DNA of 24,963 nt, from IMG/VR virus record IMGVR_UViG_3300021091_000397, positions 1 to 24,963 of that record; one strand, 5' to 3'. This document shows positions 189-15,938 of this stretch, in pieces. The notes beneath the pieces are model-generated. The model was not told where the DNA came from. It saw nothing but the letters and a program-made list of their open reading frames with translations, and made no database searches. The position numbers were made by a program, and so were the translations under genes. Within the stretch, counting starts at the first letter, position 1, and each line of letters opens with the position of its first letter. The DNA comes from a virus.

Positions 189-246
189 ACAAAACCCTCC
201 GAAGAGAGTTCTGAAGCACACGGAAGGGTCTGGTTTAAGTATCACC
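189..246 (-). ncRNA. Candidate short RNA (about 58 nt)
   Basis: A consensus sigma70 promoter (TTGACA, 18 bases, TATAAT) would start transcription near base 246, and a terminator hairpin with a T-run ends near base 190. The product would hold only the last few codons of the Mom-like gene and the hairpin. Either this is a small RNA, or the hairpin is a leaky attenuator before the left-edge structural gene. Inference only; no transcript data. Confidence 0.3.
191..228 (-). terminator. Rho-independent terminator after the Mom-like gene
   Basis: On the minus strand CCCT-T-CCG (one bulged T) pairs with CGGAGGG around a 19-base loop and is followed by TTTTGTT. It begins 7 bases after the stop codon of the Mom-like gene and separates that operon from the left-edge structural gene. 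Confidence 0.65.
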
Positions 247-864
247 TCTATTATTATACCACTTTTCTTCTTTCCATGTCAAGCGTTTTTGTAACTCTTT
301 ATCAAAAACCAAGAGGTATCTATGCTTTCTTGAACGTTCTTTCCATTCTCCTTCGAAACCTTTTACTTGCCCACGAGAGTGTTTAGTTCCGTCTGAATAA
401 TAGAAATCTTTTTTTCTATCCGTGAGACCGTAATACTTAAAGTTGCAAGCGCGATAAATTGTACCAGAATGGTGATCTGAATCAGCATAAGAAAGGATTG
501 CTTTAACTTCAGTATCTCTCCGAAATTGTCTAATCGTTTTTGACACAAACCAAGAAGTGATGTTATATTCGCATGACTGCGTACTAGGTTCGATACAAAG
601 TCTTGAGAGTTCAAAGAGTCCTTGTTGTTCGTGTCTTTCAAGTTCAAATGCTCCTTTCGCAATTTCAGGTACAGGTAATCCAGTAAAAATGCAGACTCCT
701 TGAAGTCCACCAATATTCAAAGGAGAGAACTCATTCTTCTTAAAGAGTCCATAGTTCCAACCTGATTTGAAACCCTTAGAAATATCTTTAAGATAATGAT
801 ATTGAAGTAAAAGTTCTTCTGCTTGTTTTTTTGTTACTTTATCAATATAGAAGTCAGACTTCAT
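235..864 (-). CDS. Mom-like DNA-modification protein (GNAT-fold acyltransferase family)
   Basis: The 209-residue protein has the layout I associate with phage Mu Mom-type proteins: HYLKD near residue 23, FELSRLCI near residue 85, then SYADSDHHSGTIYRACNFKYYG (residues about 124-145), close to the Mom-family pattern SYAD...GH.G.IY.A.N..Y.G, and a basic segment with KHRYLLVF near residue 180. Mom converts adenine in phage DNA to a carbamoylmethyl form that blocks restriction; the family is related to GNAT acetyltransferases. Whether this protein modifies DNA or acylates another substrate cannot be read from the sequence. The ATG overlaps the upstream stop (ATGA), so it is coupled to the 57-residue gene before it. 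Its last codons contain a consensus sigma70 promoter. No Com-like regulator is visible nearby. Confidence 0.65.
   Translation of the reverse strand: MKSDFYIDKVTKKQAEELLLQYHYLKDISKGFKSGWNYGLFKKNEFSPLNIGGLQGVCIFTGLPVPEIAKGAFELERHEQQGLFELSRLCIEPSTQSCEYNITSWFVSKTIRQFRRDTEVKAILSYADSDHHSGTIYRACNFKYYGLTDRKKDFYYSDGTKHSRGQVKGFEGEWKERSRKHRYLLVFDKELQKRLTWKEEKWYNNRGDT
253..282 (-). promoter_or_regulatory. Sigma70 promoter TTGACA-18-TATAAT
   Basis: Both hexamers are exact consensus on the minus strand: TTGACA at 277-282 and TATAAT at 253-258, 18 bases apart. The promoter lies inside the last 16 codons of the Mom-like gene. Transcription would start near 246, about 18 bases before a terminator. Confidence 0.55.
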
Positions 865-7304: not shown

Positions 7305-8826
7305 ATCTAAATCTAAATTGTGCTTCTGCTTCTTCTGGTGTTAAAATATCAGCATTTGTCAAATTTTCTTGATTTCTATTGCTGGTAGAGTTTGCAGCAG
7401 CTTGATCACTCAACAGTTTTCTTTCACCAGCAGCTGCTTGAATCGCATCTGCATCTGGAATTCCAGTTTGCCCACTAACTAATGATCCTGATGGTGAGGA
7501 TGCTGTTTCCTTACTTGACGATGCCATTCCGCTTGGTTTTCTTCCATAAGAATCACGAACCAATTCTAATGATGTTATTCCCTGAAATCCTGAATTGTTT
7601 GTTCCTGGGGTAACTTTATGGCAAAGTGCTGAAATAATATAAATTCCACTCATTCTTGAGTTATTATCTGGATTTGTTTTAGAAGACTGCTCTGGAAAAT
7701 CAACAAATATTGCTTGCCCTGCTTCCAAACTAAAATCAGCAGCGATTGTAATATTAACTTTGTTTGTAAAGAACTGATTATATCGTGATGATGATGTTGA
7801 TAAAATTTGAGACTTTTGTACATCATACTCGTGTGAACGATCAATATCAGTCAATGCTCCTATTGCTTCATTTCCAGTAAAAAAACGAGATGGATCTTTG
7901 ATAAAAAATGAATTCAAATTTTTTCCATACTCGGTTCCTGGATACTTGATAGCAGATTCTTGCGCTCCAATGTTAAGTGGATTGCAATTGAAAGCACTTT
8001 CAAATGAATTAAACAAATTTACAGATGAATTAAATGCTCCCATCATCAACTTATCATTCATATCAGAAGTAAAGTTTGAATCATAATTAATAATTTTGCC
8101 AGTATATCCCTTAGGAATCTTTGATGAAGTTGTGTTATTATAAATGTATTTTTTTGTTGGAGTCTGTCCAAGTAAAGCATCTATGGATTTAAATTTATAT
8201 CCCGATTTTGTTTCAAAGAAAAAATAACCAGCAGTTAAACCCAAAGCACTTGTATTCTCACGAATTGATTGAGATGCTAACCAATAGATAAACCAAAATG
8301 GTTTCTTAGTCGTACCAATAAAGGCTCTTTGATTCTTTGTAGATTCAATATCTAATGGTTTTGTAGTTTGTAAAACTTCTTGCAATATTTTTTTAATAGA
8401 GTCGGATATTTTGCCTTCATATTTCTTTATGACTCTAACACTTTCATTTCTAAGATTTTCTTTTGAAACTATCTCTAAAATTTCTAGATCATTTAATTTC
8501 TCAGTTAATCTTTGTCTTGAACCAACATGAATGTCTTTGAGTGTAATTTTTTGCCCAAGAGCATCTTCTAGTTCAATCTCACACTTTTCCATTCCAGTAA
8601 GTTTTATCTTTTCTGCCGCTGTTATTTTTGCACCACTACCGTCATTTGCCCCTGCTGCACGACCAGTATCTATAAATCCTGTGGTAACTCGAACAGTTGG
8701 TGACATAATATCTTCATAGTAACTCAATTCAACTACACCACCTGCAACATTTATTTCCTTTCCGCCTGCATTTGGGTAAATATTAAACTTTTTAATATCG
8801 GCTTTTGAATTAGCATCTAATGACAT
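7303..8826 (-). CDS. Baseplate hub subunit, gp27-like
   Basis: The 507-residue protein lies directly upstream of gp5 as the hub partner gp27 would. Its start has strands typical of hub proteins (FNIYPNAGGKEINVAGGVVELSYYEDIMSPTVRV) and it continues with LKDIHVGSRQRLTE, FWFIYWLASQS near 175 and a late AGQAIFVDFPEQS/GIYIISALCHKV segment near 365-405, which resembles the hub domain III of gp27 and related proteins. The C-terminal 80 residues are low-complexity Ser/Ala. T4 gp27 is 391 residues. The upstream gap of 14 bases is AT-only and no ribosome binding site is clear. The call rests on gene order and fold-like motifs rather than on strong identity. Confidence 0.65.
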   Translation of the reverse strand: MSLDANSKADIKKFNIYPNAGGKEINVAGGVVELSYYEDIMSPTVRVTTGFIDTGRAAGANDGSGAKITAAEKIKLTGMEKCEIELEDALGQKITLKDIHVGSRQRLTEKLNDLEILEIVSKENLRNESVRVIKKYEGKISDSIKKILQEVLQTTKPLDIESTKNQRAFIGTTKKPFWFIYWLASQSIRENTSALGLTAGYFFFETKSGYKFKSIDALLGQTPTKKYIYNNTTSSKIPKGYTGKIINYDSNFTSDMNDKLMMGAFNSSVNLFNSFESAFNCNPLNIGAQESAIKYPGTEYGKNLNSFFIKDPSRFFTGNEAIGALTDIDRSHEYDVQKSQILSTSSSRYNQFFTNKVNITIAADFSLEAGQAIFVDFPEQSSKTNPDNNSRMSGIYIISALCHKVTPGTNNSGFQGITSLELVRDSYGRKPSGMASSSKETASSPSGSLVSGQTGIPDADAIQAAAGERKLLSDQAAANSTSNRNQENLTNADILTPEEAEAQFRFR

Positions 8827-11776: not shown

Positions 11777-14035
11777 TTATCTCTTAGTTCCAGATGCAGT
11801 TTGAGCAAGTCTTGTACCAGCTTTATGCCTTGGTGAAGGACTTGGAGCTGTTTGAGATTTTGATGAACTGGATCCACTACCTCGCATACCTCCCATACCA
11901 CCACCAGCAGGGTTATACTTTGGTTTTGGTTTGGGGAGTGGTTTTACGCCTGATTTTTTTCTTTGTTCGTGAGCAAGTTTTGCTGCATTATAATCTTTAT
12001 AATATTTCCCGTCTGAAGAGGAAAAATATCTCCCAATGGAAGCAGCACCTGCTTGTTTCATTTTAAATGTTGCTGCTGCGTCTGCTGCTTTATTTTTATC
12101 AATATCTTTTTGAGATCCAAACATTGAGGTCAAACTTCTTCCTATTTGACCCAGGAGTCCACCTCTCTTCTCAAAATCTTCACGTCTTACTTTATCTTCC
12201 GCATCAAATCTAACTCCTCTTGATGTTGATTGAGTGCGGCTGCCTCCCCGAGCACCAGCATAACTTAACTTATCAAGTCTTTGTTGAGATGCAAGAGAAG
12301 TCATTCTTGATTTTCTTGCTGCTTCTGCATCATTATAATTTCTATATGTTTTTTGATCTGATGATGAATAATATCTGTTCTTTGATGCCGCATAATCCAT
12401 TCTTGCTGACATTCTTGGACCACCAAATAATCCTCCTGGTTGAAATAATCCTCCACTAGGGACAGCTCTGTCTCTACGATCTAATGCAACATACACCGCA
12501 TCATTACCTCTTCTCATTCCATAATATCTTTTGCCACCTAAAGTAATGGATAAATCCATTTTCTCAGCACCACCTTTGACTACAACTGCATCACGTCCTT
12601 GATTTTTTGCACCATAACCTGTTCCAAGATCTCTACCGGTGCTTTCTCCCTTTAACGATAGTCCAGATCCAGAGGATAGTGCTTTCTGTGCTTGTAGTTG
12701 AGACTTTGCAAGTCTTTCTCTTTTTTCTAAAATGGGATCCTTAATTTTCTCTTTCTTTTCCTCCTGAGATCCAATATACCCTCCTCCCTGAGCATAAGTA
12801 ACTCCATCAGTAATCTGTGGAATATTAGTTCCACCCCCAGCAGCATTCATTGATTCAAGAGTATCAATACCATACTTTTGCACGGCACCTTTTGACATCA
12901 CGAACTCTCCGTCCGTTAACATCGCAGGAACTTTATCTCTTCCTTTTGGTCCTTTTACAAGACCGCTAAACATATTACCGAAGAAATTTTTAATTCCTCC
13001 TGCCCAACCACCGCCAAAGAATCCAGGAACTTTAAAATCACCGCCTGCAAGACCCTCAATAGTACCTGATGCTCCTGCTGTTATAGCAACATCTGCACCA
13101 ACTGCTAATCCAGCACCAAGCAGTCTTCCTCCTCTACCACCAAGAAAACTTGCTAGTTTTCCTGCTTTTTTAAGACCCATTTTTGCTGCAATACTTGCAG
13201 TAATTTGAATGAGTTTTAAAGAACCTTTGATTAAAAGTCTGGATAATCCTCCGACAAATCTACCAAGACCAGTTCCAAACCTTAAATATAATGCTAAAAT
13301 TGTTGGCCAATGATCCTTGAAAAATCTTATTAAACTTTGTATCTTCTTCTGGTTTTCTTTATTACTAAACCAATCAAACAACTTCACTACTACTCTACCA
13401 AGTAGCGTGAAGAAAATGAAGTTCATGATCTTATCAAAGATCGATTGGAATGGTTTAGTTACAGCAGCAACTGCTTTTTTAAGACCATCGAAAGTTTTTG
13501 ATTCTAAACCAGTTTCTCTTTCCGCTCTTTTTTTCTGCTCATCACCTCTTCTTCTTTTTTCATTCTCTTTTTGGTTTTGTTTGTTTATTCCAATCAGAGT
13601 GTTTAAAATAGAATCAAGAGTTTTGCTGATTGTGAGCAGAGGATTTTCTTCTCCTACTTTATCTTGTGAGATCGCATCAATTTTATCTTTTTGCCCTGCC
13701 CCAACACCTCCGGAAGGAGCAAGCATTAGTCTCTTTTGAGTTCCTCTTACTTGCTTTCTAATTCCACCAAGACCCAATCCAGTAGCACTGATCTTGGTTT
13801 TTTTAATTTTAAATCTACCTTTTTTCCCTCTAACTCTTTTAAACTCCGCTTTTATTCCTTCTACCTCACTACCATCAATCTTTCTTGATCCAGTAGTAAT
13901 TTCTGCTAAAAGTTCTCTTAGATTACTTTTATAAGTTTCATAATCAAGTTCTTCAATTTCATTAGGCTCTAAGGCTAGTAATCTTAAAATTACCTCATCA
14001 ATATTCTCTGTGGGTAAATTAAAATTACCAGCCAT
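11777..14035 (-). CDS. Tail tape-measure-like structural protein
   Basis: A 752-residue protein placed immediately after the gp26/gp51 pair, where tape measure genes normally follow tail-assembly chaperones. Residues 1-190 are charged and helical; 198-350 hold several hydrophobic stretches (IMNFIFFTLLGRVVVKLF near 203) and glycine-rich loops; 368-390 reads DKVPAMLTDGEFVMSKGAV, a motif I know from the C-terminal part of many tape measure proteins. The last 250 residues are Ser/Arg/Gly-rich and hold a duplicated motif (RYYSSSDQKTYRNYN at 554, RYFSSSDGKYYKDYN at 669). T4 gp29 (590 aa) is the probable functional counterpart, but sequence identity cannot be claimed. Its ATG overlaps the end of gp51 by 11 bases. 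Confidence 0.6.
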   Translation of the reverse strand: MAGNFNLPTENIDEVILRLLALEPNEIEELDYETYKSNLRELLAEITTGSRKIDGSEVEGIKAEFKRVRGKKGRFKIKKTKISATGLGLGGIRKQVRGTQKRLMLAPSGGVGAGQKDKIDAISQDKVGEENPLLTISKTLDSILNTLIGINKQNQKENEKRRRGDEQKKRAERETGLESKTFDGLKKAVAAVTKPFQSIFDKIMNFIFFTLLGRVVVKLFDWFSNKENQKKIQSLIRFFKDHWPTILALYLRFGTGLGRFVGGLSRLLIKGSLKLIQITASIAAKMGLKKAGKLASFLGGRGGRLLGAGLAVGADVAITAGASGTIEGLAGGDFKVPGFFGGGWAGGIKNFFGNMFSGLVKGPKGRDKVPAMLTDGEFVMSKGAVQKYGIDTLESMNAAGGGTNIPQITDGVTYAQGGGYIGSQEEKKEKIKDPILEKRERLAKSQLQAQKALSSGSGLSLKGESTGRDLGTGYGAKNQGRDAVVVKGGAEKMDLSITLGGKRYYGMRRGNDAVYVALDRRDRAVPSGGLFQPGGLFGGPRMSARMDYAASKNRYYSSSDQKTYRNYNDAEAARKSRMTSLASQQRLDKLSYAGARGGSRTQSTSRGVRFDAEDKVRREDFEKRGGLLGQIGRSLTSMFGSQKDIDKNKAADAAATFKMKQAGAASIGRYFSSSDGKYYKDYNAAKLAHEQRKKSGVKPLPKPKPKYNPAGGGMGGMRGSGSSSSKSQTAPSPSPRHKAGTRLAQTASGTKR

Positions 14036-14207
14036 TAGTTTGTTGATTCTGCTTGAACTCTTCTTCTTCTATATGTTGCTTGAGAAGTTCAACGTATACG
14101 TCTCTTTCCCAAGGTATCATATTTTCAATTTCCGTCAATGAATATTTATGGTACTGCATCAACGAAAAATTAAGACGGAAGTAGTTTTGGAGGTCCATAT
14201 GGACCAT
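14025..14207 (-). CDS. 51: gp51-like / tail chaperone extension, likely made by -1 frameshift from gp26
   Basis: A 60-residue reading frame (from an ATG at 14207) with LNFSLMQYHKYSLTEIENMI then PWERDVYVELLKQHIEEEE. The compact PWERDVY...LL...EEEE ending looks like the second part (T) of tail-assembly chaperones of the lambda G/GT type. Cyanophage annotations call this frame gp51, the hub assembly catalyst, but T4 gp51 is much longer. The frame is open back into the 3' end of gp26 and meets a T TTT TTC slippery heptamer, so a gp26-gp51 fusion is predicted. Independent starts at 14207 or 14198 (MDLQNYF) are possible; only the second has an AGGG at usable spacing, and it lies in the predicted hairpin. 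Confidence 0.6.
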   Translation of the reverse strand: MVHMDLQNYFRLNFSLMQYHKYSLTEIENMIPWERDVYVELLKQHIEEEEFKQNQQTNGW

Positions 14208-14222
14208 CCCTATGCGAAAAAA
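14189..14222 (-). promoter_or_regulatory. Programmed -1 frameshift signal (slippery heptamer plus hairpin)
   Basis: On the minus strand, gp26 reads AGT TTT TTC GCA TAG. The heptamer T TTT TTC (14216-14222) has the canonical X XXY YYZ form. A -1 slip continues as CGC ATA GGG ATG into the gp51 frame without a stop. Eleven bases after the heptamer is the perfect dyad GGTCC-ATAT-GGACC (14192-14205), extendable by GG/CC across a small internal loop so that the stem begins about 6 bases after the slip site, which is the usual spacing. Confidence 0.65.
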
Positions 14223-14929
14223 CTTGATAACCCTTCAAGAACAACTTCACTTTCAACTTCTGTTTTTGGATTTTTAACCTTTACAGTATGAGAAAGTTTT
14301 GGCATAGTTTCAAAGAACTTCTCAATCTGTTTGAATTGTGTTGTGTTCATTTGATCCAAGAACTCCATGAGTTCTTTTTTGGTCACATCAGATGCAGACC
14401 AAGCCTCTTCTTCGTTAAAGATTTTATCGACACAAGATGCAACAAGTTCAAATGACTGTTCCATTGCATTGTCATTTGAGAAATCAAAGTTACTCTTAAT
14501 AAATTGATCCAAAGATGGATACTTCATTTGCATCATTAAACTATCATCTAGTTTAATTTTATTTGTGTGCTCATCATTTCTTTGGACTTGAATATCATCT
14601 ACATTGATCTTGATAGGAACGGATGTTTCACCATCATCTGGGCAGATAATATTTACTTCAATATCTTCACCAACAGACTTGCCACGAATATTCAAAAACA
14701 AATACTCGATATCAAAAGTTGGTAGAGATTCTACTTTAATTCCTTTTGTCTCAATACAGTTTTTAATAACTGTTTTAATTGCAGTAGTAATCTGTTTTGT
14801 ATCCTCAGATTCCAATGCAATAACAAGAAGTTTTTCTTCTTTGACAAGGAAAGGTCTATATTTTACTGTTTCTCCAGTTGAAGGCAATTCCAACTCATAA
14901 GTTGGCGTAGCAATTTTTGGTAAAGGCAT
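14210..14929 (-). CDS. 26: Baseplate hub subunit gp26-like (T4 baseplate protein family)
   Basis: The 239-residue protein starts MPLPKIATPTYELELPSTGE followed by a YRPFLVKEEKLLVIALESED segment, which matches the gp26-type baseplate protein family found in T4-like phages. It is acidic, with a helical C-terminal half (KELMEFLDQMNTTQFKQIEK) and ends VVLEGLSSFFA. T4 gp26 is 208 residues and acts in hub assembly. Position directly before the gp51 frame and the tape-measure-like gene suggests it is the N-terminal tail-assembly chaperone, with gp51 as its frameshifted extension. An AGGAGA ribosome binding site and a late-type promoter box precede the ATG. Confidence 0.8.
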   Translation of the reverse strand: MPLPKIATPTYELELPSTGETVKYRPFLVKEEKLLVIALESEDTKQITTAIKTVIKNCIETKGIKVESLPTFDIEYLFLNIRGKSVGEDIEVNIICPDDGETSVPIKINVDDIQVQRNDEHTNKIKLDDSLMMQMKYPSLDQFIKSNFDFSNDNAMEQSFELVASCVDKIFNEEEAWSASDVTKKELMEFLDQMNTTQFKQIEKFFETMPKLSHTVKVKNPKTEVESEVVLEGLSSFFA

Positions 14930-14954: not shown

Positions 14955-14962
14955 TATTTATT
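14955..14962 (-). promoter_or_regulatory. Late promoter box AATAAATA before gp26
   Basis: 7 of 8 match to TATAAATA, 25 bases before the gp26 ATG, overlapping the TAA stop of gp54 on the minus strand. Confidence 0.55.
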
Positions 14963-15938
14963 AGATACCAGAAAATCGTGAGATTGGTCCACGATTTCTT
15001 CCAACATAAGGCAAACCTGCCTCAACTTGTCTATTATTTGCAGTGATAGCATTTATAATTTCTCCACCTTCTCCACTTTCAGTTAAAGACCCAGGAGAAA
15101 GATTAAATTGGTTTGGAGAAATATTGTTAAAAAAGTTTCCAGAAATTGGTGAAACTCCAGAAAATGCATTGGTAAGTGCTTTTCCATTAGCATATGCAAC
15201 ATCACTTGGATTTGCAACACCAATAGCAGGAGTTTGTGAGGGCTCTCTTTCTTGTCCTGTAAGTGGTTTACTGTCAACAACATATCTGTCATATGTAAAC
15301 GATACAGTACATTTTAAAAGCGAAGATGTATCGTAAGAGACTGGCATTGATGTTATTGATGTTGGAAAGGCATTAAAAAAACTGTAATAAATGCTTGATC
15401 CCTGATAGGAACCATTTGTTTCATTTTGTCTATCCTTTCCTGTTTTTGATCTTGCAGTTCTTTCAAATTTTGTTATATAAATGGTTGTTTTATAAGTTTT
15501 TGGATACATCATTCTATAATGATTCGTCAATCGAGCAGACTCAGATATTTGCTCCCCTGTTATAAATTGCATCCATCTTTCAAATACTAGTATTTGATTA
15601 TAACTTGTATCCACATAAAATGTAAAATCTGCTCTATCGTCATATAATCTTCTATATGCATGTCTTTGAGTAACACCAGTGAAATCATTATTTAATTCAA
15701 CGGTAGCGAGATTTGATCCAGGAAGAGATGCCTCAGAGCAGGATAATATTAAAAGTTCTGTATTTACTGGAACAGATTTTTGAATAAAATCTTTTACTTT
15801 TCCTTGTCTATCAGACAAAAAGGTATTTGGAATATTGAAAAAGCATTCAAAATGAGACGTAAGGGCTGGATGCAGTAAACTACCTTTTATATCATTGATA
15901 GTTCTTATTTTTGGCGCAGCTGGTCTTGGTTGAGTCAT
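14961..15938 (-). CDS. 54: Baseplate tail tube initiator gp54-like
   Basis: A 325-residue protein close in length to T4 gp54 (320). It contains segments I know from the cyanophage gp54 group: LLHPALTSHFECFFNIP near residue 20, LLILSCSEASLPGSNLAT near 62, NDFTGVTQRHAYRRLYDDRADFTFYVD near 84 and SITSMPVSYDTSSLLKCTVSFTYDRYVV near 195. The alternating strands and the EASLPG loop are those of tail-tube-fold proteins (gp19/gp48/gp54). It would sit on top of the hub with gp48 to start tube polymerisation. It is the first gene of the minus hub operon, divergent from gp4. Upstream there is only a weak late-like TATAAAGG and no clear ribosome binding site. Confidence 0.75.
   Translation of the reverse strand: MTQPRPAAPKIRTINDIKGSLLHPALTSHFECFFNIPNTFLSDRQGKVKDFIQKSVPVNTELLILSCSEASLPGSNLATVELNNDFTGVTQRHAYRRLYDDRADFTFYVDTSYNQILVFERWMQFITGEQISESARLTNHYRMMYPKTYKTTIYITKFERTARSKTGKDRQNETNGSYQGSSIYYSFFNAFPTSITSMPVSYDTSSLLKCTVSFTYDRYVVDSKPLTGQEREPSQTPAIGVANPSDVAYANGKALTNAFSGVSPISGNFFNNISPNQFNLSPGSLTESGEGGEIINAITANNRQVEAGLPYVGRNRGPISRFSGI

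Follow-up and report, generated by a model that had tools for sequence, protein, structure and literature searches.

The gp26-gp51 junction

Is gp51 of T4-like cyanophages a gene of its own, or the continuation of gp26 in the -1 frame? The question is raised by a 24,963-base viral fragment from IMG/VR (the window, by which we mean the whole stretch of DNA analyzed), which holds the tail region of a T4-like cyanophage on its minus strand. Here gp26 ends in tca agT TTT TTC gca TAG. A sequence-only reading of this DNA had pointed out that these last codons contain the canonical slippery heptamer T TTT TTC and that the -1 frame is open from there into gp51; both statements were confirmed, the frame being open through to the gp51 stop (Table 1). 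With a probability of about 0.9, we interpret these sequences as a single recoded gene, coding for a short protein and a predicted -1 frameshift fusion. Tail chaperones made by frameshifting are a familiar feature of lambda-like and P2-like phages, and the T4 group is among the best studied phages and the most abundant in the sea. In the freely readable literature we found, provisionally, no prior report of a frameshifted gp26/gp51 in T4-like phages and none of T4 gp51 as a long form.

The first frame belongs to PF12322 (T4_baseplate; E value of 9.5e-77, 258 bits against a curated cutoff of 24.5) and matches phrog_150 (E value of 3e-82). Databases label it a baseplate hub subunit, and its AlphaFold2 model has a pLDDT of 88.6. 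The extension in the -1 frame is recognized by phrog_634 (E value of 2.1e-29) and also matches the end of phrog_150. After the slip, this frame reads CGC ATA GGG ATG GTC CAT ATG GAC (SSFF-RIGMVHMD... across the junction), and the predicted fusion has 238 + 63 = 301 aa. The preceding gene codes for a protein with the fold of a tail tube (phrog_45 tail tube, E value of 1.4e-31; PF23849 Phage_TTP_2, E value of 2.7e-13). As for the following gene, the pair had been described as standing directly before a tape-measure-like gene. The adjacency holds, and the identity of this neighbor relies on weak matches, namely to the tail length tape measure family phrog_10030 (E value of 3e-4, residues 361 to 411), a region with the sequence DKVPAMLTDGEFVMSKGAV, which we take to resemble a tape measure motif. 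The protein also carries two hydrophobic stretches. Elsewhere in the window, positions 238 to 864 (minus strand) match a Mom-like DNA modification family (phrog_1384, E value of 5.6e-34).

Table 1. Features of the gp26-gp51 region, in coordinates of the window
Feature	Position	Strand	Details
Preceding gene, protein with the fold of a tail tube (tail tube or initiator of the gp54 type)	14961..15938	-	phrog_45, PF23849
gp26, short (G-like) product	14210..14929	-	239 aa; stop TAG 14212-14210
Slippery heptamer U_UUU_UUC	14216..14222	-	In gp26 frame
-1 frame extension, gp51/T-like domain	14025..14216	-	Post-slip length of 63 codons; stop at 14027-14025
ATG in -1 frame	14205..14207	-	2 nt past gp26 stop; gp51 start of the annotated type; not conserved
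Second -1 frame ATG	14196..14198	-	Within hairpin; conservation frequent, not universal
Downstream hairpin	14189..14209	-	Core GGTCC/ATAT/GGACC 14205-14192 (arms 14205-14201 and 14196-14192), starting 10 nt past heptamer; extended by GGA/UCC (14209-14207/14191-14189) with one bulged U, starting 6 nt past heptamer
Next gene, candidate tape measure protein	11777..14035	-	752 aa; overlaps gp51 end

Conservation and spread of the slippery site

Taken alone, the heptamer and hairpin of this window are weak evidence, since the 21.4 kb of coding sequence checked contain 7 in-frame T6N heptamers and the folding of the hairpin is weak by itself when compared with shuffled sequences (z = -1.61). Apart from the site at the gp26 end, two in-frame T6N heptamers are found in the minus-strand tail gene at 7306-8826, at codons 203 and 316, far from its end, and can serve as a control inside the window. 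The comparison with relatives was based on 244 distinct junctions, derived from IMG/VR and from phage records; each IMG/VR scan provided its best 80 loci, and the set was thus sampled by similarity to a few seeds. An in-frame U_UUU_UUN no more than three codons from the gp26 stop was present in 241 of the junctions, with UUC as the last codon in 204, UUA in 20, UUU in 16 and UUG in 1. The gp51 frame is open at -1 in all 241, extending 164 to 203 nt beyond the gp26 stop. Every Kyanoviridae-type junction examined has both the heptamer and the open -1 frame, and the three junctions that lack the heptamer are all non-cyanophage.

The six T's behave differently from their surroundings. Fitch counts on the protein tree of 235 gp26 sequences, used here as simple change counts, gave zero for every one of the six T's. 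In the codon that precedes the slip, base 1 changed 35 times and base 2 changed 34 times, and the median for the third codon positions of gp26 was 59. That preceding codon appears as AGT, TCT, AAT, GCT, GAT or GGT, i.e., its third base is always T. Where Phe-Phe is found elsewhere in gp26 genes, it is most often encoded by TTC TTT (149 of 253), and TTT TTC is rare (15). The six-T pattern is not needed by the gp26 protein and is needed for a tandem slip to -1, which indicates selection on the slip site. Together, the retention of the heptamer in nearly all junctions and the absence of substitutions at the six T's place the site of the window beyond chance.

The slippery site is also found outside the cyanophages, in KVP40, ValKK3, Aeh1, Ahp1, Aeromonas 65, Cronobacter S13 and Stenotrophomonas Yut3, and in the phages of rhizobia (Sinorhizobium, Agrobacterium) phiM7, phiM9 and OLIVR6. 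An intact pair with no slippery site, which the sequence-only reading had regarded as counterevidence, was found solely in one clade (support of 100/98), made up of Vibrio and Serratia Ackermannviridae phages and Pseudomonas phage Cygsa01. Their pair (e.g., in Vibrio phages VAP7 and K474) has the same two-frame layout as in cyanophages, with gp51 at -1, but without the heptamer; of the six members examined, five have stop and start overlapping as TAATG. With this overlap and no heptamer, these phages probably make two separate proteins, and the missing heptamer is a loss specific to this lineage and not a refutation of frameshifting in the others.

gp26 and gp51 of phage T4

Unlike the cyanophages, with their one slippery gene, T4 has two separate and related genes, and no frameshift is needed. 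Both T4 gp26 (208 aa) and T4 gp51 (249 aa) are members of PF12322 (215.6 and 177.5 bits, respectively). By profile comparison, cyanophage gp26 aligns with residues 6 to 200 of T4-type gp51 (E value of 3.7e-12) and residues 204 to 248 of T4 gp51 match the -1 frame domain of the cyanophages (E value of 1.8e-10). Given both alignments, T4 gp51 corresponds to the predicted fusion in one frame, joined at the slip point; judging from these sequences, T4 gp26 is the short form and T4 gp51 a natural zero-frame fusion. The predicted models of cyanophage gp26 and T4-type gp51 (pLDDT of 84.8 for the latter) share the order of their elements, and gp51 adds three C-terminal helices.

T4 and its close kin would, in this manner, obtain the same two products from separate paralogous genes, gp26 for the short one and gp51 for the long one. 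These genes are in tandem on one strand in Klebsiella phage KP15 and divergent in T4. In the tree, T4 gp26 and gp51 are adjacent, opposite to all slippery and coupled forms; with a support of 81/83 and no root, a duplication in the T4 line is favored, not proven. We consider it probable that gp51 serves T4 as the long, GT-like chaperone of the tape measure protein and that the T4 lineage has swapped the frameshift for a duplication. If true, the T4 family would display three solutions for a single pair, namely slippage, stop-start coupling, and duplication, and would provide a natural case of related lineages that reach the same pair of products via recoding or gene duplication. T4 gp51, listed as a hub assembly catalyst, would then be a long gp26 chaperone that acts on the tape measure protein.

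Putative role as tape measure chaperones

Lambda gpG/gpGT, with counterparts in HK97, P2, and others (PMC5009743), offers the comparison for the function of the pair. As in lambda, two overlapping frames follow a tail-tube-type gene, the predicted slip to -1 lies toward the end of that first frame, and there is a short product plus a predicted rarer one with a C-terminal extension, known here from the gene layout. Unlike in lambda, the cyanophage pair belongs to PF12322, has a first frame of ca. 239 aa and uses U_UUU_UUN, and no significant sequence similarity between the two systems was found. The Phage_TAC tail chaperone families of Pfam gave no match, even at relaxed thresholds, and a search by sequence for gp26 relatives with solved structures returned nothing meaningful. 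A Foldseek comparison with solved structures gave a weak match to the HK97 tail assembly chaperone 2ob9 (probability of 0.72, E value of >1, rmsd of 2.8 over 62 columns) and others, also weak, to 3klu and 3fgx, none of them significant. The last two are presumably related phage tail chaperones.

By analogy, we infer that gp26/gp51 would be the same chaperone system as G/GT. The gene order, the listing of the T4 proteins as chaperones, the zero-frame fusion in T4 and the weak likeness to the HK97-type fold all agree with this role. The tape measure protein would be coated by the short form, whereas the long form, the rarer of the two, would recruit tail tube subunits through its added domain.

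The frameshifting could also be real and its products be structural proteins of the hub, not chaperones of the tape measure, in line with the hub subunit label of the databases and with genetic studies, cited in PMC3004832, that place gp26 in the hub. However, the same source counts both T4 proteins among the chaperones of hub assembly and reports that gp51 (described in 2010 as of unknown function) is needed for assembly and absent from the final particle. Besides, in two Acinetobacter phage records the T4-type genes carry the label tape measure protein assembly chaperone, and the weak fold matches include the HK97 tail assembly chaperone, so that a structural role for the products seems to us unlikely.

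Downstream hairpin and proposed mechanism of slippage

On a single recoded gene of this kind, the majority of ribosomes would end at the gp26 stop and release the short protein. A minority would pause at the hairpin, located 6 to 10 nt downstream of the heptamer, and slip by -1 on U_UUU_UUC, both tRNA-Phe re-pairing with UUU_UUU; the slipped ribosomes would read on in the gp51 frame and produce the gp26-gp51 fusion of ca. 301 aa. Both the slippage itself and its rate are inferred.

The hairpin (GGTCC/GGACC with a four-base loop) had been placed 11 bases downstream of the heptamer, or 6 if extended; our values of 10 and 6 differ only by the counting convention. As a check, it had been proposed to look for conservation of heptamer, open frame, and stem across T4-like cyanophages. 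The first two are conserved, and the stem has compensatory changes in several clades and is absent in others. In the clades of the window and of S-PM2, the predicted folding energy reaches its minimum directly after the heptamer, with about -11 versus a background of about -6 kcal/mol per 50 nt. Among the 73 distinct sequences of the window clade, all five core pairs show compensatory changes, with 39 double-change cells versus 11.9 in shuffled versions, and the stem is paired in 85.5% versus no more than 54.2% in slid versions. In a second clade this place is taken by an unrelated stem of 11 bp, for which 13 double-change cells were counted versus 3.3 shuffled, one of the slid versions having 17 with only 44% paired. 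Both this clade and its stem were chosen after viewing the sequences, which makes the statistics less independent here than in the window clade, where the stem had been named beforehand by the sequence-only reading. S-PM2 has a 14-bp hairpin with about the same spacing (z = -4.33).

Selection for a stimulator would be expected to give just this, stems that differ between clades and share their position. A folding-energy scan detected no stable hairpin after the site in the ACG-2014d-type and Methylophilales-type clades, which rules out a universal hairpin; the element is not obligatory, or has another form in these two clades. We discarded a Shine-Dalgarno-like stimulator (GAGG/AAGG, ca. 9 nt before the heptamer), as any Glu-Gly gives this motif and synonymous conservation is not raised there.

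The conserved element being a T-run, the -1 product might also derive from slippage in transcription, in which the RNA polymerase adds a U and the same fusion sequence is expected. Against it, most sites stay at six T's, the register is always X_XXY_YYZ and the covarying hairpins are found at ribosomal spacing. Six T's are, besides, short for the transcriptional slippage reported in bacteria, and we consider this origin of the fusion very improbable.

Initiation of gp51

The sequence-only reading had also suggested that gp51 may not depend on a start of its own, for which the junctions provide strong support. In 78 of the 241 with a heptamer, the first ATG of the -1 frame is found at codon 15 or later after the slip; with none in the first 14 codons, independent initiation of gp51 is untenable in these phages. 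In 43 of the 241, neither ATG, GTG nor TTG is found within 18 codons of the slip, a point at which the conserved gp51 domain is well under way. By itself, the sequence of the window is compatible with independent initiation, because of its ATGs at 14207 and 14198. The first of them is often lost in relatives, and the position of the second is occupied by ATA in relative L005 and by TTG in L050. L005, with a gp26 that is 85% identical to that of the window, reads RLALIYIDLESYF, and its first ATG is at codon 20. Conservation extends to the residues FFR(I/L) of the -1 frame, located upstream of any start, and in a tblastn comparison with 555 phage records the gp51 matches of many distant phages set in before the first ATG.

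The two -1 frame ATGs at no more than 14 nt from the gp26 stop in the window, the database records that annotate gp51 as its own gene, and the TAATG overlap of the distant heptamer-free clade would fit a gp51 made separately, from an ATG after the gp26 stop that is used through translational coupling or reinitiation, with the T-run as a mere coincidence of codons. The ATG-free junctions (L005 having none near the junction), the selection acting on six T's for which the gp26 protein has no need, and a -1 frame conserved 5' of any start make this very improbable.

If the reading of gp26 and gp51 as one recoded gene is right, the annotation of both in hundreds of cyanophage genomes needs to be changed, since gp51 would not be a free-standing protein. 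The gp51 domain is unannotated in the records of ACG-2014d, Aeh1, Cronobacter S13, and S-CAM1 (L082, L091, L345, and L357), and the records without this annotation show an apparent gap of ca. 160 to 190 nt downstream of gp26. In Serratia phage 2050H1 (L086, positions 1484 to 1660) and in L350 and L351, the gp51 domain is open at -1, with no U6 heptamer and no ATG, GTG, or TTG before the core of the domain. The gp26 of this type ends in cag GTT TTC atc TGA, and its gp51 domain is perhaps reached by slippage on G_GUU_UUC or from a CTG start.
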